DNA of 64,000 nucleotides, taken from NCBI RefSeq assembly GCF_035918095.1, contig NZ_CP109137.1, positions 6,636,001-6,700,000 of the forward strand. The letters run 5' to 3'. Under the pieces are notes generated by a model that was given only the letters and a program-made list of their open reading frames with translations, had not been told where the DNA came from and searched no databases. Positions 29,367 to 42,681 of this stretch are shown piece after piece. Source of the DNA: Streptomyces sp. NBC_01750 (GTDB lineage Bacteria; Actinomycetota; Actinomycetes; Streptomycetales; Streptomycetaceae). A program made the translations under genes and the position numbers. Positions within the stretch are counted from its first letter, which is position 1, and each line of letters opens with the position of its first letter.

Positions 29367-31151
29367 ATGCCCCGACATCAACCTGGCAGCTCTCTGACAG
29401 CAGCCAGAGAGCTTTACCAGGAGATCACCAAGGATCCGAGCGCCCGCCCGCTCGTGGTCGCCTCCTGGCAGCGCTCGATCGAGTACCAGGTGAAGTCGAG
29501 CTGCATCGACGCTCCCTACCTCGAGAACCCCAATCTGGACAGCCCGCTCGCCAAAGCGGCGCTACCGATCCTGAACGCGCTGCACGAGCAACTGGCCGAC
29601 GACCCGGTGTCCACGATGGTCACCGACCGCAACGGCGTGGTGCTGTCCCGCATGGTCTCCCAGCAGGCTCTGACGACGCGGCTGAACCGAGTGCAGCTGG
29701 CCCCGGGCCACGTGTTCGCCGAGCGCTACGTGGGCACCAACGGCATCGGGACCGCACTGGCCAGCGGCCGCCCGGTCATGATCGCCGGAAGTCAGCACTA
29801 CGTCGAGGCGCTGCGGGACTTCTACTGCGCGGCCGTGCCGATCCTGCATCCCACCCGGCGCACCCTGCTGGGAGCCTTCAACCTGACCACGGCCCGTCAG
29901 GGCTCAGCCGGCATGCTCATGGCCCTGGCCCGCTCTGTCGCGGGCCAGATCGAAAGTGAGATCGCCGCGATCAGCTCGCGACGGGAACGGGCCCTGTTCC
30001 AGGACTACATGGACGCGTGCTCCTCGGTGCGCCCCGGACCTGTTCTGGCCATCAATCGCGATGTCGTCATGATGAACGAGCAGCTGAGATCGGCCGTTAC
30101 AGGGACGGATCACTACGCACTGCTCGACCACGCACGTGAGATCGCCGACGACCTCCGGTTCGAAGGTACCCGGAGCATCGCACTCCCCTCCGGACGCATC
30201 GCCGAGCTCCGGGTGAGCCGTAGCCGGCGCGAGGACAGCGACGCGGGCACCATCTTCCGAATCCGGGTCATCGGGCGTCCCCAGTCCGGACCGGTCGCTT
30301 CCGCTGGATCCACACGATCGGGCCTGGGCCTGGTGGGCTCCTCCCCGCGATGGCTGAGCGCGGTCGCCGAAACCGAAGCGGCGTTCGTCGCCGGGTCCTG
30401 GCTTCATCTCGTGGGAGAAGCCGGGGCCGGGAAGGGGACGCTGATCGAAGCCCTCCACCGAGCCAAAGGTGCCGGGCGCCGGCTCGAGAGGGTGGAAGCG
30501 CCGCTGTCGGAGTCGACGCACGCCACCGAGCAATGGCTGCGCAACGTCCGCGAGCTGCTGGCCGAGCCGTCGAACGTGGTCGTCCTGCGCGATGTCCACC
30601 TTCTTGCCGCCCACTCGCGCCAGCAGCTGCGAAGCCTCCTGACACACCTGGACACGACCGCCACCGGGCAACTGATCATGACCAGCCAACCGTCCATGGT
30701 CACGACCGACGACGTGCTCGACCGTCTGTGCGACGCCTCGGTAGAGGTGCCTCCCCTCCGTCATCGCTATGGAGACATCGAGCACCTGGTCCGGTTCTTC
30801 CTGCTCAAATACAGGCCGAGCGGAGAGAGCAGCTGCTCCCCGGATGCGCTGACGATGCTGCAGCGCTGCCCCTGGCCGGAGAATGTCCGGCAGCTCGAGT
30901 CGGTGATCCGTGGCCTGGCGCGGCGGCAGTCCGTCCGGATCCTGCGAGTGGAGGATCTCCCGCCGGAATGCCGGGTGTCCTCGCACAAAGTCCTGACCAC
31001 CATCGAAGCGCTGGAACGGGACGCCATTCTCCGAGGGCTGATGGACCGCAGCTCCAACGTCCAGCGCACCGCACAGGATCTCGGCATCTCCCGCGCCACC
31101 ATGTACCGCAAGATGCGCCGTTACGGGATCGTCCCGTCGAGCCTCACCTAG
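29367..31151 (+). CDS. AcoR-like GAF/AAA+/Fis transcriptional regulator without GAFTGA
   Basis: 594 residues. A GAF-type sensor (about 60-215, VSTMVTDRNGVVLSRM, YVGTNGIGTALASGRPVMI) is typical of regulators sensing small alcohols, ketones or aromatics. An AAA+ domain (about 320-500) has Walker A-like GEAGAGKGTL and VVVLRDVHLL, and a C-terminal Fis HTH (about 555-590) reads TAQDLGISRATMYRKM. The GAFTGA loop that contacts sigma-54 is absent, as expected in actinomycetes, which lack sigma-54. It is divergent from the ADH/ABC operon with a palindrome between them, so it most likely controls that operon. GGGAG precedes the ATG. Confidence 0.85.
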   Translation: MPRHQPGSSLTAARELYQEITKDPSARPLVVASWQRSIEYQVKSSCIDAPYLENPNLDSPLAKAALPILNALHEQLADDPVSTMVTDRNGVVLSRMVSQQALTTRLNRVQLAPGHVFAERYVGTNGIGTALASGRPVMIAGSQHYVEALRDFYCAAVPILHPTRRTLLGAFNLTTARQGSAGMLMALARSVAGQIESEIAAISSRRERALFQDYMDACSSVRPGPVLAINRDVVMMNEQLRSAVTGTDHYALLDHAREIADDLRFEGTRSIALPSGRIAELRVSRSRREDSDAGTIFRIRVIGRPQSGPVASAGSTRSGLGLVGSSPRWLSAVAETEAAFVAGSWLHLVGEAGAGKGTLIEALHRAKGAGRRLERVEAPLSESTHATEQWLRNVRELLAEPSNVVVLRDVHLLAAHSRQQLRSLLTHLDTTATGQLIMTSQPSMVTTDDVLDRLCDASVEVPPLRHRYGDIEHLVRFFLLKYRPSGESSCSPDALTMLQRCPWPENVRQLESVIRGLARRQSVRILRVEDLPPECRVSSHKVLTTIEALERDAILRGLMDRSSNVQRTAQDLGISRATMYRKMRRYGIVPSSLT

Positions 31152-32983: not shown

Positions 32984-33390
32984 ATGGACGCATCAGTCAT
33001 CGTCGCCGGAGCGGGTCCCGCCGGTCTCATGCTCGACCGGCGCGGACTGCTGAACCGCTTCGGTGACATCGGCACCAGCGACGCGGGGCACTTCGGGAGT
33101 TGGTGACCGGCAACCGCAAGACCAGCCGCACCCAGGAACTGCACGCGGGGAGGGGCGTTCTGCTCGACCTGGAGGACAACGCCGTCCTCCGCGGCCGGGC
33201 GTCGTCGGGCTGGTCCGACCGTGTGGACGTCGTGACCGCGGCTCCCCACGGGCTCCGGCCCGGCAGCCCGCGCACCGGCACATCGGCCGTCCTCGTACGC
33301 CCCGACGGGCACATGGCCCGGGCCGCGCCCGGCAGCCACCACACCTGCCCATGGCGCTCGAACACTGCTTCGCCCCTCCCGAATCCGACC
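32984..33390 (+). pseudogene. Deletion-ridden PgaE-like FAD hydroxylase (canonical E position)
   Basis: Starts as a normal aromatic hydroxylase (DASVIVAGAGPAGLML, the FAD-binding GxGxxG), then jumps to DRRGLLNRFGDIGTSDAGHFG, which belongs about 40 residues further on. It then jumps, with a frameshift and stop at 33104-33106, to the C-terminal domain: ELVTGNRKTSRTQELHAGRG, VLLDLEDN, WSDRVDVVTA, AVLVRPDGHM. A further frameshift near 33335 precedes the last segment LPMALEHCFAPPESD. More than half of a 490-residue enzyme is missing, including the active site and the second FAD motif. In angucycline clusters an intact hydroxylase normally sits here, directly before the cyclase gene. Confidence 0.8.
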
Positions 33391-33410
33391 ATCCCGATAA
33401 GGAGATGTGG

Positions 33411-33737
33411 ATGCACAGCACGTTGATCGTGGCCCGGATGGAACCCCACTCGGCCGCGGAGGTCGCGAGCCTCTTCGGCGCGTTCGACGACACGGAGATG
33501 CCGCATCGGATGGGAACCAGGCGCCGAGAGCTCTTCTCGTACCGTGGCTTGTATTTCCACCTGCAGGACTTCGACGGCGAAGACGGTGGCGAGCGCATCG
33601 AGGAGGCGAAGACCGACTCCCGGTTCGTCACCATCAGCAACGACCTGAAACCGTTCATCACGGCCTACGACCCGGCCGCCTGGCGCTCTCCCGCCGACGC
33701 CATGGCGGAGCGCTTCTACCACTGGACCGCACGGTGA
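33411..33737 (+). CDS. TcmI-family polyketide cyclase (F-type)
   Basis: 108 residues, the normal size for TcmI/UrdF-type cyclases (ferredoxin-like fold). [10 protein letters not shown] opens the first strand; [20 protein letters not shown] and [15 protein letters not shown] are the conserved core, and the tail reads FYHWTAR. It acts in the cytoplasm on the poly-beta-keto intermediate, closing the later rings. AAGGAG sits six bases before the ATG at 33411; an ATG at 33405 is too close to the ribosome site. The stop overlaps the KS-alpha GTG (GTGA). Confidence 0.9.
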
Positions 33738-35014
33738 GCGCGCCGCATGGCCGGCGGGTCGTCATCACCGGAATCGGCGTCACCGCGCCCGGTGGTGTGG
33801 GCGTCAAGAACTTCTGGAGTCTGCTGACCGACGGCCGCACCGCCACCCGCCGCATCAGTTTCTTCGACCCGACCCCGTTCCGCTCGCAGGTCGCTGCGGA
33901 GGTCGACTTCGACGCCGAACTCCTCGGGCTGAACACCCAGCAGATCCGGCGGATGGACCGGGCCGCGCAGTTCGCCGTGGTGACCGCACGCGAGGCGGTG
34001 GCGGACAGCGGACTGGACCTCACCGCCCTCGATCCGCACCGCACCGGCGTGACGATCGGCAGCGCGGTCGGCGCCACCATGGGGCTGGACGAGGAGTACC
34101 GCATCGTCAGCGACAGCGGCCGGCTCGAACTCGTCGACCACACCTACGCCGTCCCGCACCTCTACAACTACCTGGTGCCCAGCTCCTTCGCCGCCGAGGT
34201 GGCGTGGGCCGTGGGTGCCGAGGGCCCCGCCATGGTGGTCTCCACCGGCTGCACCTCCGGGCTGGACGCGGTGGGCTACGCCACCGAGCTGATCCGTGAG
34301 GGCTCGGCCGACGTCATGGTGGCCGGCGCGTCGGACGCCCCCATCTCACCGATCACGGTGGCGTGTTTCGACGCGATCAAGGCGACCACGTCGCGCAACG
34401 ACGATCCGGAGCACGCCTCCCGTCCCTTCGACAGCACCCGCAACGGATTCGTCCTGGGTGAGGGAGCGGCCGTCTTCGTCCTGGAGGAACTGGACAGCGC
34501 CAGACGTCGCGGCGCGCATGTCTACGCGGAGGTCGCCGGCTACGCCACGCGCAGCAACGCCTTCCACATGACGGGCCTGCGCCCCGACGGACGGGAGATG
34601 GCCGAGGCGATCCGGGTCGCCCTGAACGAGGCCCGGCTCGATCCGGACGATGTCGACTACGTCAACGCGCACGGCTCGGGCACCAAACAGAACGACCGGC
34701 ACGAGACCGCCGCCTTCAAACGCAGCCTGGGCGAGCACGCCTACCAGGTGCCCGTCAGCTCGATCAAGTCGATGGTCGGTCACTCGCTGGGCGCCATCGG
34801 TTCGATCGAGATCGCGGCCAGCGCGCTCGCGATGGAACACGGTGTCGTGCCGCCGACCGCCAACCTGCACACGCCCGACCCCGAGTGCGACCTGGACTAC
34901 GTGCCGTTGACGGCACGGGACTGGCGGACCGACGCCGTGCTCTCGGTGGGCAGCGGCTTCGGCGGATTCCAGAGCGCGATGGTGCTGGCCCGTCCCGAAA
35001 GGAGAGCGGCATGA
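33734..35014 (+). CDS. Type II polyketide ketosynthase KS-alpha
   Basis: 426 residues, GTG start overlapping the cyclase stop. Catalytic Cys173 in [13 protein letters not shown]; His residues in [12 protein letters not shown] and [12 protein letters not shown]-terminus [17 protein letters not shown] and [12 protein letters not shown] are typical of aromatic PKS ketosynthases. It forms a heterodimer with the following CLF and extends the malonyl-ACP-derived chain. The stop overlaps the CLF ATG (ATGA). No KS-III or starter acyltransferase is seen in the window, consistent with an acetate starter. Confidence 0.96.
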
Positions 35015-36234
35015 GCGGCGCCGCCGTCAGAACCGTGGTCACCGGTCTGGGCGTGGCCGCCCCCAACGGCTGTGGCACGGACACGTACTGGGCGGCGGCC
35101 CGCAAGGGGATCAGCGGCATCGGCCGTATCTCGCGGTTCGACCCCACGCAGTACCCGGCCCGGCTGGCGGGGGAGATCAACGACTTCGTCGCCGAGGACC
35201 ATCTGCCGGGGCGGCTGCTGCCACAGACCGACCGGATGACCCGGATCGCTCTGGCGAGCGCAGACTGGGCGCTCGCCGACGCGGGTGTCGACCCGCGGGA
35301 ACTGCCCGACTACGGCATGGGCGTGATCACGGCCAGCTCGTCGGGCGGTTTCGAGTTCGGCCAGCGGGAGCTGCAGGCGCTGTGGAGCAAGGGCAGCCGT
35401 TACGTGAGCGCCTACCAGTCCTTCGCCTGGTTCTACGCGGTCAACAGCGGCCAGATCTCCATCCGCAACGGCATGCGCGGCCCGAGCGGTGTGATCGTCA
35501 GCGACCAGGCGGGCGGGCTCGACGCGATCGCTCAGGCCCGGCGTCAGATCCGCAAGGGCACCGGGCTGGTGATGTCAGGGGCCGTCGACGCCTCGATCTG
35601 CCCGTGGGGCTGGGTCGCCCAGATGGCAGGCGGCCGGCTGAGCACGAGTGAGGACCCGGAGCGGGCGTATCTGCCCTTCGACGCCGCCGCGCGAGGACAT
35701 GTGCCGGGGGAGGGCGGGGCGCTGCTGGTCCTCGAGGATCTGGAGAGCGCCCGTGCCCGAGGGGCCCGGGTGGTCTACGGAGAGATCGCCGGATACGGCT
35801 CCACCCTGGACCCCCGGCCGGGCAGCGGCCGTCCCCCGGGGCTGGCCAGGGCGATCGAACTGGCGCTGGCCGACGCGGGCGTCGCTCCGGAGGAGATCGA
35901 CGTGGTGTTCGCCGACGCGGCCGCGATCCCCGAGCTGGACCGTGTCGAGGCCGAGGCGATCTCCCGGGTGTTCGGTCCGCGGGCCGTGCCGGTCACCGCG
36001 CCCAAGACCATGACCGGACGCCTCTACTCGGGCGCGGCACCGCTGGACGTGGCCGCCGCGTTCCTCGCCATGCGCGACGGAGTGATCCCGCCCTCCATCG
36101 GCGTCACCCCCGACCCCGAGTACGACCTGGACCTGGTCGTCGAAGAGGAGCGCACCGCGACGGTCCGCTCCGCCCTGGTGGTCGCCCGCGGCCACGGCGG
36201 CTTCAACTCCGCGCTGGTGGCACGCGCCGTCTAG
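35011..36234 (+). CDS. Chain length factor (KS-beta)
   Basis: 407 residues, paralogous to KS-alpha, with Gln166 replacing the catalytic Cys in [10 protein letters not shown], the hallmark of a CLF that decarboxylates malonyl-ACP and sets chain length. The family start is [15 protein letters not shown]. Its TAG stop (36232-36234) is the site where two insertion sequences entered; both insertions leave the reading frame and stop intact. The ACP gene, normally a few tens of bases downstream, is now 2.7 kb away. Confidence 0.95.
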
Positions 36235-36237
36235 TGA
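36228..36237 (+). repeat. Left 10-bp target duplication of the IS4 element
   Basis: CGTCTAGTGA directly before the left inverted repeat, repeated exactly at 37713-37722. It includes the CLF stop codon TAG and the first bases (GTGA) of the IS630 left end. Confidence 0.9.
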
Positions 36238-37712
36238 CAATACCGGTGATTTAGGTTGTCTTCCGGCGGGTCGGTCTGGCCTTGGTCGGCCCGACCAGGG
36301 TCACGCGGGGAGTGTCCGGCCGGGGCGGATTGTGGTGCTCGGCGCGTTTGAGCTTCCAGTTGGACATCTTGCGTTTGATGACGCGGGGGCTGGAGCGCAA
36401 CCGCCGGGGTGCCAAGAGCCGTTCGCGGATCTCATGCAGGGCCGTGACCAGTGCCCGGGCCAGCCGGGAGGGGGGAAAATGCCGCCTGGTCGGTGACGTG
36501 GCGGCGGACGACGCGCAGGGTGCGGGTGAAGGAAATCCGGTCCGGGTCCTGCTCGGATTGCTGTGCGGCCTGGTGCATTAGGTCTCGCAGTGCGTGGTGC
36601 ACCAGCAGGAAGGCGAAGATCTCCTGCTCGGCGCCGCGGGGGTGCTGGGAGCGTAGGACGAGGCGGGGGCCTCCGAGATGAGTCTTGATCTCATCCAGCG
36701 TGCTCTCGATCTCCCATCGCTGGGCGTACAGCGCGGCCAGCGAGGCGGCAGGGCCGGCTTTCGGGTCGAGGATGGTGGTGATCAGCCGGTACACCGTGTC
36801 GCTGCCGTCGCGGCCGAGCGTGTACTCGATTACCCGGACCCGGGCCGGGTCCGCGCGACGGTTCTTGTCCCGGGCCGCAACAATCTCCGAGAGGTAGGAG
36901 CCGTCCTCCAGCAGGGCCCGGACGGGGAGTACGGCGTCGTTCCTGACCCGCCACGGCAGGTCGGCGCCGGTTGCGGCGGCGGCCCGCCACAGGTCGAAGC
37001 CGCGAAAGCCCCGGTCGGCCAGCAGTAGCATGCCCGGCGTCAGTGAGCTGAACAGGCGCTGGGCCAGCTCGGTTTCATGGACAGCCAGCGGTCCCGCCTC
37101 CGCCGCGAAGACAGCGTGGGTGCCGCACTCGGCCAGCGCGGCCACCCTCACCTGCGGATAGGCGCTCTTCTCCTGTCCGCGGCTGACTCCCGGGCGGCCG
37201 AAGAAGGCGGCATTGGCCTCGGTGTCCGGCACGTCGAAGGTGGTGCCGTCCACCGCGACCAGCCGCCACCCCCGATACCAGGCCCCGCTCGTGTCCTCGG
37301 TCGCCACCGGCCGGCACACCCGGGCAAACAGTGCCTTTAGCGGCTCCGGGCCCAGTCGCAGACGGGCCCGGCCGATCGCCGCGGTGGTCGGCACCTGCCA
37401 GGTCCCCTTCCACCGGCCCATCCGCTCCAGTCCGTGCGTCAGGAGTCGGGCGACCTCCTCATAGCCCTGCCCGGAGAACAGACACATCGCCAGCACGAAA
37501 TAGACCACCACCCGGGCGGGCAGCAGCCGTTGGCGCTGCTCGACCCGGCCACATCCCGCGACCACCTCATCCACCAACTCCGGCGGAAACGCGCGGGTCA
37601 GCACCCCAATCGCGATCCGATCCGAAAATCGGTCATCCGACGACGACTTCACCTGTCCGGGCCTTGGCACACCACACCCAACGACCCGAAAACCCCAAAG
37701 TCACCGGTATTG
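36238..37712 (-). mobile_element. IS4-family insertion sequence, 1475 bp, complete ends
   Basis: Terminal inverted repeats CAATACCGGTGATTTAGG (left) and CAATACCGGTGACTTTGG (right, reverse complement), 16 of 18 matching. Flanked by 10-bp direct repeats CGTCTAGTGA, as expected for IS4 elements. One transposase gene on the minus strand, frameshifted near its 3' end. Because its target spans the junction between host DNA and the IS630 end, it must have inserted after the IS630 element. Confidence 0.92.
36251..37670 (-). pseudogene. IS4-family DDE transposase, frameshifted in its C-terminus
   Basis: The uninterrupted frame runs from 37670 to a stop at 36432 (412 residues). It contains the DDE core: Asp in LVAVDGTTFDVPD, Asp in LLLADRGFRGF, and the IS4 YREK motif YAQRWEIESTLDEIK. 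At 36470-36475 there is a run of six G (C on the coding strand). Removing one base restores AFSPSRLARAL and a further 70 residues ending RPTRRKTT at 36251, just inside the IS end, as in other IS4 transposases. So a one-base insertion truncates the protein after all catalytic residues; it may be inactive, partly active, or a sequencing slip in a homopolymer. Confidence 0.8.
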
Positions 37713-37722
37713 CGTCTAGTGA
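37713..37722 (+). repeat. Right 10-bp target duplication of the IS4 element
   Basis: CGTCTAGTGA immediately after the right inverted repeat; identical to 36228-36237. Bases 37717-37718 (TA) are at the same time the left target dinucleotide of the IS630 element. Confidence 0.9.
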
Positions 37723-38891
37723 GCTGGTTTTGAGTCGGTAGCTCGCCTCGTGTGTCGCTTCTCGTTTCAGATCTTGGTGGTCTGCTGCGAGGAGCGGTGG
37801 GGCTGCGTTGTGCTGGGGGCATGGGTGATCCGAGGCTGGAGCCGCTGGTGCTGTCTGAGGCTGAGCGGGTGGTGTTGGAGAACTGGGCCAAGCGCCGCAC
37901 GACTGCGCAGGGCCTGGCGAAGCGGGCGCGGATCGTGCTCGCGTGTGCCCGGGGGTGGAACAACACCGTGGTCGCCGCGCGGTGTGACACGGACCGCTCC
38001 ACGGTGCGCCGTTGGCGGGACCGGTTCCTGCAGGACCGGCTGGACGGCCTGTCCGACGAGCCGCGTCCCGGAGTGCCGCGCACCATCACCGACGCCCAGG
38101 TGGAAGAGGTGGTGGTGCGCACCCTCGAAGAAGTCCCCGAGGGCGGCACGCACTGGTCGAAGCGGGAATTGGCCCGGCAGGTGGGGATCTCGCCCAGCAG
38201 CGTGCACCGCATCTGGCGGGCCTTCGGCCTGCAGCCCTGGCGGACCGAGGAGTTCAAGATCTCCCCGGACCCGCTGCTGATCGACAAGATCCGGGACGTG
38301 GTCGGGCTCTATCTGGCACCGCCGGCCCATGCGGTGGTCTTCTCCGTTGACGAGAAACCCCAGATCCAGGCGCTGGAGCGGACCGCGCCGGTGCTGCCGG
38401 TGCTGCCCGGAGTGCCCGAGCGCCGCAGCTTCGACTACGTGCGGCACGGCACCATCGACCTGTTCGCCGCGCTGAACACGGCAACCGGACAGGTGATCAG
38501 CCGCCTGTCCGCGCAGCACCGGGCCGTGGACTTCCGGGACTTCCTGGCGGAGATCGACCGCCAGACCGAGCCAGGCCTGGCGGTCCATGTCATCTGCGAC
38601 AACCTCTCCGCCCACAAGGCACCGGTGGTGCACAGGTGGCTGCTCGCACACCCCCGGTTCACCCTGCACTTCACCCCGACCTACTCGTCGTGGATCAACC
38701 AGGTCGAGCGGTGGTTCGCCGAACTGCAACGACGCTGTCTGGAACGTGGCGTCTTCTGCTCACTCGACGATCTCAAGACCGCACTCGACGAATGGATCAA
38801 GATCTGGAACGAGGCCGCCCGGCCCTTCAAGTGGACCAAGACCGCCGACCAGATCTGCCACTACTGCGACAGGATCTCCGGACCGGCTCAC
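37719..38891 (+). mobile_element. IS630-family insertion sequence, 1173 bp
   Basis: Left end GTGAGCTGGT and right end (reverse complement) GTGAGCCGGT form imperfect terminal repeats, each abutting a TA dinucleotide (37717-37718 and 38892-38893), the IS630 target duplication. Removing it and the IS4 element restores the CLF end GTC-TAG followed by CCCGGCCCCCGCAG and the ACP ribosome site. One transposase gene fills it. Confidence 0.88.
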
Positions 38892-38894
38892 TAG
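37821..38894 (+). CDS. IS630-family DDE transposase
   Basis: 357 residues. N-terminal double HTH (LAKRARIVLACARGWNNTVV, STVRRWRDRF, GISPSSVHRIW) and a DDE domain: Asp in VVFSVDEKPQIQ, Asp in HVICDNLSAHK and Glu in YSSWINQVERWFAEL. The ATG at 37821 with GGGGG upstream gives the standard length; the frame is open back to 37752. Notably the stop codon TAG at 38892-38894 is not inside the element: TA comes from the target duplication and G from the original CLF stop. It appears intact and so may be active. Confidence 0.92.
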   Translation: MGDPRLEPLVLSEAERVVLENWAKRRTTAQGLAKRARIVLACARGWNNTVVAARCDTDRSTVRRWRDRFLQDRLDGLSDEPRPGVPRTITDAQVEEVVVRTLEEVPEGGTHWSKRELARQVGISPSSVHRIWRAFGLQPWRTEEFKISPDPLLIDKIRDVVGLYLAPPAHAVVFSVDEKPQIQALERTAPVLPVLPGVPERRSFDYVRHGTIDLFAALNTATGQVISRLSAQHRAVDFRDFLAEIDRQTEPGLAVHVICDNLSAHKAPVVHRWLLAHPRFTLHFTPTYSSWINQVERWFAELQRRCLERGVFCSLDDLKTALDEWIKIWNEAARPFKWTKTADQICHYCDRISGPAH

Positions 38895-38942
38895 CCCGGC
38901 CCCCGCAGTGACCGCCCCACCGAGATGAAAGGACAGCCATTC

Positions 38943-39212
38943 ATGTCTGCCCACGAGTTCACCGTCGACGACCTGAAGCGCATCCTGCGCGAGGGTGCCG
39001 GCGCGGACGAAGGCGTCGACCTCGACGGAGACATCCTCGACACCGACTTCGAGTCGCTCGGCTACGAGTCGTTGGCCATGCTGGAGACCGGCAGTCGCAT
39101 CGAACGCGAGTTCGGTGTGACGCTGGACGACGACACGCTGACCGATGCCAGGACGCCACGCGCCCTGATCGAGGCCGTCAACGGCGTGCTGGTGCCGTCC
39201 GGCGTCGCCTGA
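38943..39212 (+). CDS. Type II PKS acyl carrier protein
   Basis: 89 residues. Phosphopantetheine attachment Ser43 in LGYESLAMLE (Glu in place of the more common Asp before Ser). The remaining sequence, DLKRILREGAG and REFGVTLDDDTL, is the standard four-helix ACP. The ATG at 38943 has AAAGGA nine bases upstream; an ATG at 38925 lies before that ribosome site and is unlikely. It now follows the IS630 transposase by 48 bases instead of the CLF, so it may be read from IS or downstream promoters. Confidence 0.93.
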   Translation: MSAHEFTVDDLKRILREGAGADEGVDLDGDILDTDFESLGYESLAMLETGSRIEREFGVTLDDDTLTDARTPRALIEAVNGVLVPSGVA

Positions 39213-39362
39213 CCCCCCCCCACACCGCGCCGCCGGTCCCCGCCGGTCAACCGTCGATGCCCCGACGGGGCCGGCGGTGCGCCCACTCCACTTCACGCCC
39301 CCGCAACTCCGTGCCACGGCCGGCGTGCCCGGCCTCGCCCACCGACGCAGTCAGGAGACAGC

Positions 39363-40148
39363 ATGACGGAGCAGAAACCGAAGGTCGCCATCGTCACCGG
39401 CGCCACCAGCGGCATCGGCCTGGAGGCAGCCAGGCTGCTGGCCCGCCAGGACCACCGCGTGTTCCTCTGTGCCCGCACGGAGGACAGCGTGACCCGTACC
39501 GTCAAGGAACTCGTCGACGAGGGACTCGACGTCGACGGCGCCCCCTGCGACGTCCGCTCCGCGGCGGACATCCACCGCTTCGTGCAGCAGGCCGTCGACC
39601 GCTTCGGCCCGATCGACGTGCTGGTCAACAACGCCGGCCGGTCCGGTGGCGGCGTCACCGCCGACATCGCCGACGAGCTCTGGTTCGACGTCATCAACAC
39701 CAACCTCAACAGCGTGTTCCTGATGACCCGTGAGGTGCTCAACACCGGTGGCATGCGGCACAAGAACCGCGGCCGGATCATCAACATCGCCTCCACCGCC
39801 GGAAAACAGGGCGTGGTGCTCGGTGCCCCGTACTCCGCCTCCAAACACGGCGTCGTCGGCCTCACCAAGGCGCTCGGCAACGAACTGGGCCCGACCGGGA
39901 TCACCGTGAACGCCGTCTGCCCCGGCTATGTCGAGACCCCGATGGCGCAACGCGTCCGTCAGGGCTACGCGGCCGCCTACGACACGAGCGAGGAGGCCAT
40001 CCTCCAGAAGTTCGAGGCGAAGATCCCGCTGGGCCGTTACTCCACCCCCGAGGAGGTCGCGGGCCTGGTCGGCTACCTGGCCTCCGACACCGCCGCCTCC
40101 ATCACCGCACAGGCACTGAACGTCTGTGGCGGCCTGGGCAACTTCTGA
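39363..40148 (+). CDS. Polyketide ketoreductase (ActIII/UrdD-type SDR)
   Basis: 261 residues. NADPH site TGATSGIG (12-19), NNAG (89-92) and catalytic Ser144, Tyr157, Lys161 at exactly the positions of the actinorhodin ketoreductase. Reduces the C-9 carbonyl of the nascent polyketide and thereby fixes the first-ring cyclisation. AGGAG lies upstream of the ATG. The 150-base gap before it contains only a C-rich run. Confidence 0.93.
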   Translation: MTEQKPKVAIVTGATSGIGLEAARLLARQDHRVFLCARTEDSVTRTVKELVDEGLDVDGAPCDVRSAADIHRFVQQAVDRFGPIDVLVNNAGRSGGGVTADIADELWFDVINTNLNSVFLMTREVLNTGGMRHKNRGRIINIASTAGKQGVVLGAPYSASKHGVVGLTKALGNELGPTGITVNAVCPGYVETPMAQRVRQGYAAAYDTSEEAILQKFEAKIPLGRYSTPEEVAGLVGYLASDTAASITAQALNVCGGLGNF

Positions 40149-40168
40149 CATTCGCGGAGAAGAGGACC

Positions 40169-41104
40169 ATGACGAACCGCCTGGTCGAGCACGAGATCAC
40201 CGTCGACGCCCCGGCCGCCGCCGTCTACCGGCTGATCGCCGAAGTGGAGAACTGGCCCCGGATCTTCCCGCCCACCATCTACGTCGATCACGTGGAGCGA
40301 GGCGTCGACGAGGAGCGCATACGGATCTGGGCCACCGCCAACGGCGAGGCCAAGAACTGGACTTCGCACCGCACCCTGGATCCGCGAAAGCTGCGGATCA
40401 CCTTCCGGCAGGAGATCTCCAGCCCGCCGGTCGCCGCCATGGGCGGCACCTGGATCGTCGAACCGCTCTCCGACTCGGCTTCCCGGGTGCGGCTGCTGCA
40501 CGACTACCGGGCGGTCGACGACGACCCCGAGAGCCTGAAATGGATCGACGAGGCCGTCGACCGCAACTCCCGCACCGAACTCGCCTCCCTGAAACAGAAC
40601 GTGGAACTGGCCCACGCCTCCGAGGAGATCACCTTCTCCTTCGAGGACACCGTCCAGATACGGGGCCGGGCCAAGGACGTCTACGACTTCGTCAACGAGG
40701 CGGGGCTGTGGGCCGAGCGGCTCCCGCACGTGGCGAGCGTCCGCCTGGAGGAGGACATTCCGGGGCTGCAGACCCTGGAGATGGACACCCGCGCGCAGGA
40801 CGGTTCCACGCACACCACCAAGTCGTACCGGGTGACCTTCCCGCACCACAGGATCGCGTACAAGCAGGTCACCCTGCCCGCCCTGATGACGCTGCACACC
40901 GGCTACTGGACCTTCACGGAGAACGAGCGGGGCGTCGCCGCTTCTTCGCAGCACACCGTGGTCCTCAACACCGACAACATCGCCCGGGTGCTCGGCCCCG
41001 AGGCGAGCGTCGCGGATGCCCGGGAGTACGTCCGCAACGCGCTGAGCACCAACAGCCGCGCCACCCTCGGCCATGCGAAGGACTACGCGGAGAACAAGGG
41101 CTGA
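40169..41104 (+). CDS. Didomain aromatase/cyclase (UrdL/ActVII type)
   Basis: 311 residues made of two START/Bet v1-like halves. The first begins EHEITVDAPAAAVYRLIAEVENWPRIFPPT; the second begins VELAHASEEITFSFEDTVQIRGRAKDVYDFV. Each shows the internal-cavity helix-grip pattern. It dehydrates and aromatises the first ring of reduced polyketides. It starts 20 bases after the ketoreductase with GGAGAAGAGGACC upstream, and ends two bases before the next ATG. Confidence 0.93.
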   Translation: MTNRLVEHEITVDAPAAAVYRLIAEVENWPRIFPPTIYVDHVERGVDEERIRIWATANGEAKNWTSHRTLDPRKLRITFRQEISSPPVAAMGGTWIVEPLSDSASRVRLLHDYRAVDDDPESLKWIDEAVDRNSRTELASLKQNVELAHASEEITFSFEDTVQIRGRAKDVYDFVNEAGLWAERLPHVASVRLEEDIPGLQTLEMDTRAQDGSTHTTKSYRVTFPHHRIAYKQVTLPALMTLHTGYWTFTENERGVAASSQHTVVLNTDNIARVLGPEASVADAREYVRNALSTNSRATLGHAKDYAENKG

Positions 41105-41106
41105 CC

Positions 41107-42681
41107 ATGGCCGCGCACTCTGTGGACACCGACGTGATCGTCGTGGGTGCCGGCCCGGTCGGGCTGATGCTCGCCGGGGAACTGCGGACCGGCGGGGCGC
41201 GGGTGACCGTACTGGAGCGGCTGGCCGAACCCACCACCGAGTCCCGCGCGTCGACCCTGCACGCCCGCACCATGGAGATCTTCGATCAGCGAGGGCTTCT
41301 TGACGCATTGGGGTCGGTGCCCAACGACATGGTCGGGCACTTCGGTGGGATCCGACTGGACTTCAGCGGGCTGGACAGCCGCTACCGGGGCCAGTGGAAA
41401 GTGCCGCAGGCCCGCACCGAGCAACTGCTGGGCAGCTGGGCGGTCGGTCTCGGCACGGTCGTCAGGCGCGGTCACGAGCTCGTGGGCCTGCGGCAGACCG
41501 AGTCGGGGGTCGAAGCCGAGGCGGTGGGCCCCGAAGGCAGGGTCCGGATCCGGGCCGCCTACCTGGTGGGATGCGATGGTGAAAGCAGCGCCGTACGGCG
41601 GCTGGCGGGCTTCGCGTTCCCCGGCACGGACGCGACGCGGGAGCTGCTCCGCGCCGACGTGGCCGGTATCGACGTGCCCAACCGCCGGTTCGAACGCCAC
41701 GAGCGCGGCCTGGCCATCGCCCACCGTCGGCCCGATGGGGTCACCCGGGTCATGGTGCACGAGTTCGGCAGGGCCGCCGCGGCACGCGCCGGGGAGCCGG
41801 AGTTCGCGGAGGTCGCCGCCGCGTGGGCGAGGGTCACCGGGGAGGACATCGGCGCGGGCAGGCCGATCTGGGTGAACGCGTTCGGGAACGCCCGCAGGCT
41901 GGCCGAGCGGTACCGCGGCGGCCGGGTGCTGCTCGCCGGGGACGCCGCCCACGTGCAGATGCCGGTCGGAGGCCAGGCCCTCAACCTGGGCCTGCAGGAC
42001 GCCGTGAATCTGGGCTGGAAGCTGGCGGCGCAGGTGCGTGGCTGGGCGCCGGCAGGCCTGCTCGACAGCTACCACGACGAGCGGCACGCCGTTGGCCGCC
42101 GTGTGCTGGCCAACATCGAGGCGCAGGCCACGTTGCTGCTCGGCGGCGCGGAGGTGGAGCCGCTGCGCGCGGTCGTGGCCGAGCTGCTCGGCCACGACGA
42201 GGTGGTCGGGCAGCTGGCCGGCATGATCAGCGGTCTGGACGTCCGTTACCCCGACGGAAGCGTCGCCCCGCTGCTCGGCGGCCGGGTGCCGCACTGGGAG
42301 TTGACCGCCGAGACCGGCCCGTCCAGTACCGCGAAGCTGCTCCGCCCCGGCCGCGGGGTGCTGCTCGACTTCGCCGCCGGCCTGCCGTCGGGAGCGGTTG
42401 CCGGCTGGGCTGACCGGGTCCGCATGGTATCGGCAGCGACGCCGCACGGCTCTGGGACAGGGTCCCCGTTCGAGCCCGGCGGCACGGCCGTCCGTGCGGT
42501 CCTGCTCCGCCCCGACGGTCACGTCGCTTGGGTCGACGACGGTACGACACCTCTCCGTGCCGCGCTGCACCGCTGGTTCGGCGCCCCGGACGCGGACCGG
42601 GAGAGAACGCCCGCCGTGACCGGGACCGCAGGGAAACGAGCCGACCCGCCGGTGCGTGTGCACGGCGGTACCGCCCGATGA
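41107..42681 (+). CDS. FAD-dependent aromatic hydroxylase (PgaE/OxyS family), copy 1
   Basis: 524 residues, p-hydroxybenzoate-hydroxylase fold. FAD motif VVGAGPVGLMLAGEL, DG motif VGCDGESSAVRRLAGF, second FAD motif GRVLLAGDAAHVQMPVGGQ, and a thioredoxin-like C-terminal domain with AVLLRPDGHVAW. It has SAAY-LVGCDGE-SS in place of the usual DGGRS, so this binding loop differs from the other two copies. Its position after the aromatase is that of the M-type oxygenases of angucycline clusters, but it lacks their C-terminal reductase domain. The stop overlaps the accE ATG (ATGA). Confidence 0.9.
   Translation: MAAHSVDTDVIVVGAGPVGLMLAGELRTGGARVTVLERLAEPTTESRASTLHARTMEIFDQRGLLDALGSVPNDMVGHFGGIRLDFSGLDSRYRGQWKVPQARTEQLLGSWAVGLGTVVRRGHELVGLRQTESGVEAEAVGPEGRVRIRAAYLVGCDGESSAVRRLAGFAFPGTDATRELLRADVAGIDVPNRRFERHERGLAIAHRRPDGVTRVMVHEFGRAAAARAGEPEFAEVAAAWARVTGEDIGAGRPIWVNAFGNARRLAERYRGGRVLLAGDAAHVQMPVGGQALNLGLQDAVNLGWKLAAQVRGWAPAGLLDSYHDERHAVGRRVLANIEAQATLLLGGAEVEPLRAVVAELLGHDEVVGQLAGMISGLDVRYPDGSVAPLLGGRVPHWELTAETGPSSTAKLLRPGRGVLLDFAAGLPSGAVAGWADRVRMVSAATPHGSGTGSPFEPGGTAVRAVLLRPDGHVAWVDDGTTPLRAALHRWFGAPDADRERTPAVTGTAGKRADPPVRVHGGTAR

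Follow-up and report, generated by a model that had tools for sequence, protein, structure and literature searches.

Known insertions at CTAG

According to titles of 1990 and 1991 by Tenzen, Ohtsubo and colleagues, IS630 reportedly transposes preferentially to the TA in 5'-CTAG-3', and the same CTAG preference is found in an element described here. This lies in a 64,000-nucleotide stretch of Streptomyces sp. NBC_01750 (NZ_CP109137.1, positions 6,636,001 to 6,700,000; hereafter the window, in whose positions coordinates are given), where an IS630-family and an IS4-family insertion sequence are nested at the stop codon of the chain-length factor (CLF) gene of a type II polyketide synthase (PKS) locus. 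We consider it very likely that the best explanation of this nest is insertion of a CTAG-targeted IS630 element, then of a CTAG-targeted IS4 element, at the CLF stop.

Two described systems of the IS481 family come close. In the available portion of its description, TnRErm46 / ISRe46 of Rhodococcus equi targets CTAG, the TAG of which stops the transposase and some target genes, which stay intact (PMC6794481). Our locus shares the CTAG target and the TAG that doubles as stop of a gene and of a transposase (here that of IS630); it differs in that TnRErm46 / ISRe46 is an IS481 system with cargo genes, whereas here IS630 and IS4 elements without cargo are nested. ISLxc2 / ISLxx4 of Leifsonia xyli have an NCTAGN target holding the transposase stop, and three copies were invaded by another insertion sequence (PMC2516522, as far as the available text goes). 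The stop-bearing CTAG target and the invasion by a second element recur here, but those elements belong to IS481 and their invader, IS1237, is listed with a TTA (TAA) repeat. MITEPsy1, a relative of ISPsy2, is likewise described as inserting at CTAG, or at YTAA; it differs in having a 4-nt duplication and in being a 100-nt element without transposase, and the accessible part of the text does not mention a link to stop codons (PMC3189936). Duplication of TA at the target is given as a trait of the IS630 family in the section available (PMC2170065). The IS4 subgroup, as partially available to us, matches our IS4 element in its ends, 10-13 bp duplication, size and YREK motif, but that text does not mention CTAG (PMC2266710).

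That IS630 targets CTAG, and that IS481 elements share stop codons at CTAG, has thus already been published. What is new here, modestly, is a clean case of CTAG stop-codon landing in two other families, IS630 and IS4; we found no title or abstract reporting such landing by IS4- or IS630-family elements in Streptomyces, in a search with most subscription journals outside its coverage.

A nest at the stop codon of the chain-length factor

From left to right, the locus comprises the CLF stop within CGTCTAGTGA, the IS4 element, a second CGTCTAGTGA, the IS630 element up to 38894, 48 nt and the acyl carrier protein (ACP) gene (Table 1). A first-pass annotation had proposed that IS630 entered the TA of the CLF stop TAG, and that IS4 then entered a 10-bp site across the junction, so that its duplication holds both the stop codon and the IS630 tip. 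This is confirmed, to the base. The stop lies in a CTAG at 36231-36234, two inward-facing IS630-type ends, with CTAGTGAGC as their first bases, lie at 37716 and 38894, and the copies of CGTCTAGTGA at 36228-36237 and 37713-37722 form an exact 10-bp direct repeat around a 1475-bp element. The proposed order also stands: the right duplication starts with CGT, from the end of the CLF gene, and the left ends with TGA, the IS630 tip, and therefore IS4 entered in place, after IS630.

Table 1. Features of the nest and of the surrounding polyketide genes (window coordinates).
Feature	Position	Strand	Remarks
Ketosynthase alpha (KS alpha) gene	33734..35014	+	type II polyketide genes of the window
CLF, 407 aa, intact	35011..36234	+	stop TAG 36232-36234, within CTAG 36231-36234
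Left copy of 10-bp IS4 target duplication, CGTCTAGTGA	36228..36237	.	
Insertion sequence of 1475 bp, IS4 family, IS4 subgroup	36238..37712	-	
IS4 transposase, 412 aa, YREK signature YAQRWEIESTLDEIK	36432..37670	-	
Right copy of 10-bp IS4 target duplication	37713..37722	.	includes the CTAG that restores IS630 on its left
IS630-family insertion sequence, CTAG to CTAG	37716..38894	+	only full copy found in own genome
IS630 transposase, 357 aa	37821..38894	+	stop TAG 38892-38894 completed by target CTAG
Remaining CLF-ACP spacer, 48 nt	38895..38942	+	ribosome-binding-like AAAGGA, by eye
ACP, intact	38943..39212	+	
Ketoreductase (KR), intact	39363..40148	+	
Aromatase/cyclase, polyketide cyclase domains, intact	40169..41104	+	

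The IS630 transposase matches NCBIfam NF033545 with 273 bits (cut-off 100) and carries a DDE triad at DEK 177, CDN 259 and NQVE 293 (residues chosen by eye; DDE_3, 74 bits). An IS481 identity was rejected, NF033577 giving 89 bits, below its cut-off of 224. Besides the full copy, the genome holds diverged partial matches; the closest of the other copies found has 93% identity. The IS4 transposase matches NF033592 (228 bits, cut-off 115) and has the subgroup motif Y(2)R(3)E(6)K at 315 (YAQRWEIESTLDEIK); the terminal repeats are perfect over 12 bp (CAATACCGGTGA), the subgroup ends -AATR--------WTW are present as CAATACCGGTGATTTA and CAATACCGGTGACTTT, and both the length (1400-1650 bp in the subgroup) and the exact 10-bp duplication (10-13 bp) fall within range. 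Three further near-identical IS4 copies, one of them interrupted, occur in the genome, and since the two uninterrupted ones are 99.86% identical to that in the nest, IS4 has probably moved recently; we infer that the insertions as a whole are recent.

Some other copies are unusual in their surroundings. A 1152-bp element at C1:7947169-7948320 (locus L018, 2170-3321), IS630-like by eye, sits inside another IS4 copy of the genome, its site being the TA in CCTAATG, not CTAG. The IS4 copy at C1:160428-161902 (L016) is flanked by GGACTAGACC and CATCTAGGCG, which differ although both have CTAG in register; this suggests that two copies recombined near a chromosome end. In another genome (G218, C1:6841650-6841678) a facing pair of IS4-type terminal repeats has only 5 bases between its members; it may be a remnant or a palindrome that arose by chance. 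Finally, two IS630 copies of genome G326 (L288 and L320) have right flanks that are nearly identical along the 1400 bases compared; these hold a second IS630-type sequence, 67% identical, and the pair has seemingly been copied together.

One target TAG, now present twice, stops both the CLF and the IS630 transposase, each with its own copy. In 25 of 28 full copies the transposase frame runs without a stop for 340 codons or more up to the terminal TAG, and RefSeq coding sequences end on that base in three of four fetched plasmids (H16, H17 and H19; in H18 the transposase is unannotated). The IS4 transposase gene, unlike that of IS630, stops inside its element and borrows no stop from the target. 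As CTAG flanks nearly every IS630 end, left and right alike, duplication of TA and duplication of CTAG look the same, and a 2-base cannot be told from a 4-base duplication; that TA is duplicated is assumed here from the family trait.

CTAG is a common target of the two elements

The reason for the shared site, absent from the first-pass annotation, is a CTAG preference common to IS630 and IS4. For IS630, CTAG is at the target position in 79 of 81 ends, the exceptions being TTAG and CTGG. For IS4, it is in register at all eight ends of the four own-genome copies, 4-7 bases outside each end, and at the exact target place in 42 of 52 ends, from 42 rows of own and other genomes, in which two rows may be halves of one copy and rows L030 and L032 share a flank. 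(These end counts replace an earlier hand-picked table of 37 rows, 33 with CTAG.) Among ten plasmid copies taken by hit rank, CTAG marks 10 of 12 IS4 ends (six copies) and 8 of 8 IS630 ends (four copies). Chance is ruled out as an explanation, since, at the genomic CTAG rate, 52 random positions would be expected to include only about 0.01 with the tetranucleotide. Nested insertion sequences are common, but random nesting without a common target is very improbable here given CTAG at 79/81 and 42/52 ends, and under uniform insertion the nest would have a chance of about 1e-6 (one in a million).

The target is itself scarce. In 40 stretches of 20 kb from the same genome (800 kb), CTAG occurs 137 times, against 1065 expected from a dinucleotide and 381 from a trinucleotide model; 47 occurrences are stops of called genes, 71 are intergenic and 19 are inside genes, with about 83% of bases coding. 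A CTAG in this genome is thus a gene stop about one time in three, and its scarcity inside genes means that a CTAG-seeking element mostly misses gene interiors. The window holds five CTAGs compared with 71.6 in shuffles, three of the five being the nest and its target. Another, at 31148-31151, is the stop of a regulator-like gene (29367-31151), a free site a few kb upstream. A candidate extended IS630 target, CCTAGG, is found at 7 of 27 sites versus 21 of 188 background CTAGs.

The nest very likely arose as follows. An IS630-family element picked the CTAG made of the last CLF codon and the TAG stop, a pre-insertion site that we infer from the flanks. Its insertion left CTAG on each side; the CLF therefore keeps its original TAG as stop, while the transposase takes its TAG from the far CTAG. 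Every IS630 insertion doubles the CTAG that it enters and so offers IS4 a further target, and a resident IS4 (10-bp target NNNCTAGNNN) later took the left CTAG, duplicated it again and landed between the CLF gene and IS630. With CTAG rare in a GC-rich genome and often a stop codon, two unrelated elements could therefore meet there and leave the protein unharmed.

Several observations weigh against this explanation. Ten of the 52 IS4 ends have something other than CTAG (CTAA 3, TTAG 3, and CCTC, CCGC, CCTA and CTGG one each), as have 2 of the 12 plasmid ends. The CLF gene of the closest named relative, Streptomyces sp. HNM0575, stops with TGA, not CTAG. No element-free site matching both flanks was found for any IS630 copy; for three copies (L352, L353 and L226) element-free relatives match on one side only, the far side being different. 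No second IS4-in-IS630 nest was found by pattern search in 384 genomes of the genus, a search that tolerates no more than a single mismatch in the IS4 end: CTAGTG after such an end occurs in five exact matches (own included) among the 18 matches listed, and none of the seven other CTAGTG places read (four exact, three differing from the IS4 end at one base) continues into the IS630 tip. Finally, even with the CTAG preference, and with the chromosome estimated to hold 1520 CTAGs, a meeting between any of the four IS4 copies and either IS630 CTAG has a probability of only about 0.5%. The nest is a rare event that the shared target made possible, not certain.

Landing at native stop codons

CTAG could also belong to the IS630 ends themselves and not to the target. 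This is countered by element-free relatives, on one side per copy, in which native stops occupy the same place. A PIN-domain gene, at the end of which IS630 stands in L352, ends at a native CTAG in two plasmids without the element (L386 and L387), and the CTAG that borders the L353 copy of IS630 on its right is native in L383 and L384 (L385 has CTGG). In L226, IS630 adjoins the end of an ABC-transporter gene. Of 93 genomes searched, 90 had a match; the 12 element-free orthologues read from these all stop at one and the same residue, eight using TGA and four TAG, three of the latter as CTAG. In RefSeq annotation, single cases have IS630 at the stop of a hypothetical gene and IS4 at the stop of a tautomerase gene; an IS4 copy is also seen there between two genes annotated as PKS-type, which may be fragments of a single gene.

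In L353 (Streptomyces virginiae plasmid NZ_CP108149.1), an IS5-family element at about 1085-2004 lies left of IS630; by eye, it has CTAG at both ends and shares one of these with IS630, a second meeting of unrelated elements at one CTAG.

IS630 is found at stops more often than CTAG alone accounts for. Of 26 two-ended copies from 13 other genomes, with up to six copies per genome (the window's own copy and the one-flank copies L229 and L271 being left out), 18 are at a gene stop, compared with 38 of 117 own-genome CTAGs (p = 0.0008) and 22 of 71 CTAGs in seven host genomes (p = 0.001) with a first classifier, and with 62 of 188 CTAGs overall (p = 0.0008) with a second gene caller; these calls come from a home-made codon model trained on the NBC_01750 genome, and concern 26 sites. 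CTAGs ending two convergent genes make up 4 of the 26 sites, versus 1 of the 188 background sites by the first classifier and 0 by the second gene caller. Counted per side, stops are found at 31 of 77 for IS630, 8 of 39 for IS4 and 61 of 376 for background; a preference of IS4 for stops was rejected, there being no excess. The IS630 excess may reflect survival of harmless insertions or real targeting, both of which fit.

In L357 (a plasmid of Streptomyces sp. NBC_00376) an IS4 relative lies between genes annotated as short-chain dehydrogenase/reductase and type I PKS, perhaps pieces of one gene, and IS4-type elements may thus break biosynthetic genes at times.

The polyketide locus and its expression

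That the CLF reading frame was preserved, as the first-pass annotation claimed, holds true: the protein ends at the residue at which it ends in insertion-free relatives, its C-terminus ...LVARAV being identical in the CLF relatives P0001, P0002, P0003 and P0005 and in HNM0575. P0001 and P0002 are 99% and 97% identical; no CLF above 93% besides the strain's own was found among 384 and 61 genomes searched. At the HNM0575 junction (L110) the CLF gene is followed by TGA, 68 nt and the ACP gene, with no insertion. Among the best 80 of 561 CLF relatives, an ACP active-site motif lies at most 404 nt from the CLF stop in 73, the other seven having no visible motif; the CLF stops are TGA in 63, TAG in 15 and TAA in 2, with CTAG in 8. 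The KS alpha stop overlaps the CLF start (ATGA), and this overlap is untouched by the insertions. As for the split of the minimal PKS genes, put earlier at about 2.7 kb, the insertions total 2660 bp and raise the CLF-ACP distance by 2.66 kb.

The CLF protein is unchanged, and transcription is what the insertions put at stake. The first-pass annotation offered two outcomes, a new promoter for ACP or a crippled pathway; this pair is incomplete, read-through across both elements being a third possibility. A polar block, with upstream transcription stopping short of ACP, KR and cyclase and the pathway off in this strain, is quite possible, if short of probable: 2660 bp have been inserted inside the minimal PKS, and the IS4 transposase gene opposes the operon, leaving a long sense stretch that is likely untranslated, the classic setting for Rho polarity. 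Against a block, no terminator-like site was found on the + strand in 35900-39400, Rho-dependent polarity being invisible in sequence; two such sites, both on the minus strand inside IS4, were found, in numbers close to those of shuffles. The ribosome-binding-like site before ACP is retained, and the genes for ACP, KR and cyclase are free of frameshifts and premature stops. Ratios of non-synonymous to synonymous substitution against HNM0575 (KS 0.12, CLF 0.14, ACP 0.18, KR 0.16, aromatase 0.27) are 0.16-0.27 for the genes beyond the nest, but mostly record time preceding the insertions, and a recent insertion would leave no trace in them. No Rfam match was found in 33000-42000.

The lack of a + strand terminator-like site equally favours read-through, in which the IS630 transposase gene, which runs in the direction of the operon and ends 48 nt before ACP, would help supply ACP, with a normal or reduced pathway. 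We hold this to be just as conceivable as a block; against it stands the absence of promoter-like matches in 35900-39400 (sigma-70 consensus only, which is weak for the genus), a count again close to that of shuffles. The same negative bears on a new outward promoter in IS630 that drives ACP and was selected, which we regard as unlikely. Its position and orientation would allow this, but among 14 IS630 sites at a single stop, the stopped gene is co-directional with the transposase in seven and opposed in seven, and there is therefore no sign of promoter supply.

A rare tetranucleotide as a possible shared dock

Tentatively, and with rather more doubt than belief, we suggest that CTAG is a shared stop-codon dock in GC-rich actinomycetes on which IS630, IS4, IS481 and, by eye, IS5-type elements have converged, IS630 with an extra bias towards stops, among them CTAGs at which two convergent genes end together. 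If so, the host protein would be spared, each landing would make a further dock, and one family would borrow the host stop codon for its transposase. A rare tetranucleotide surviving chiefly between genes and at stops would then be a gentle landing place, and the striking coincidence at the CLF stop an instance of a general rule. Such a dock would predict element positions in GC-rich genomes and would provide a test of target choice versus survival in shaping insertion-sequence maps. It would also be a warning that genes called intact may have lost their operon partners.

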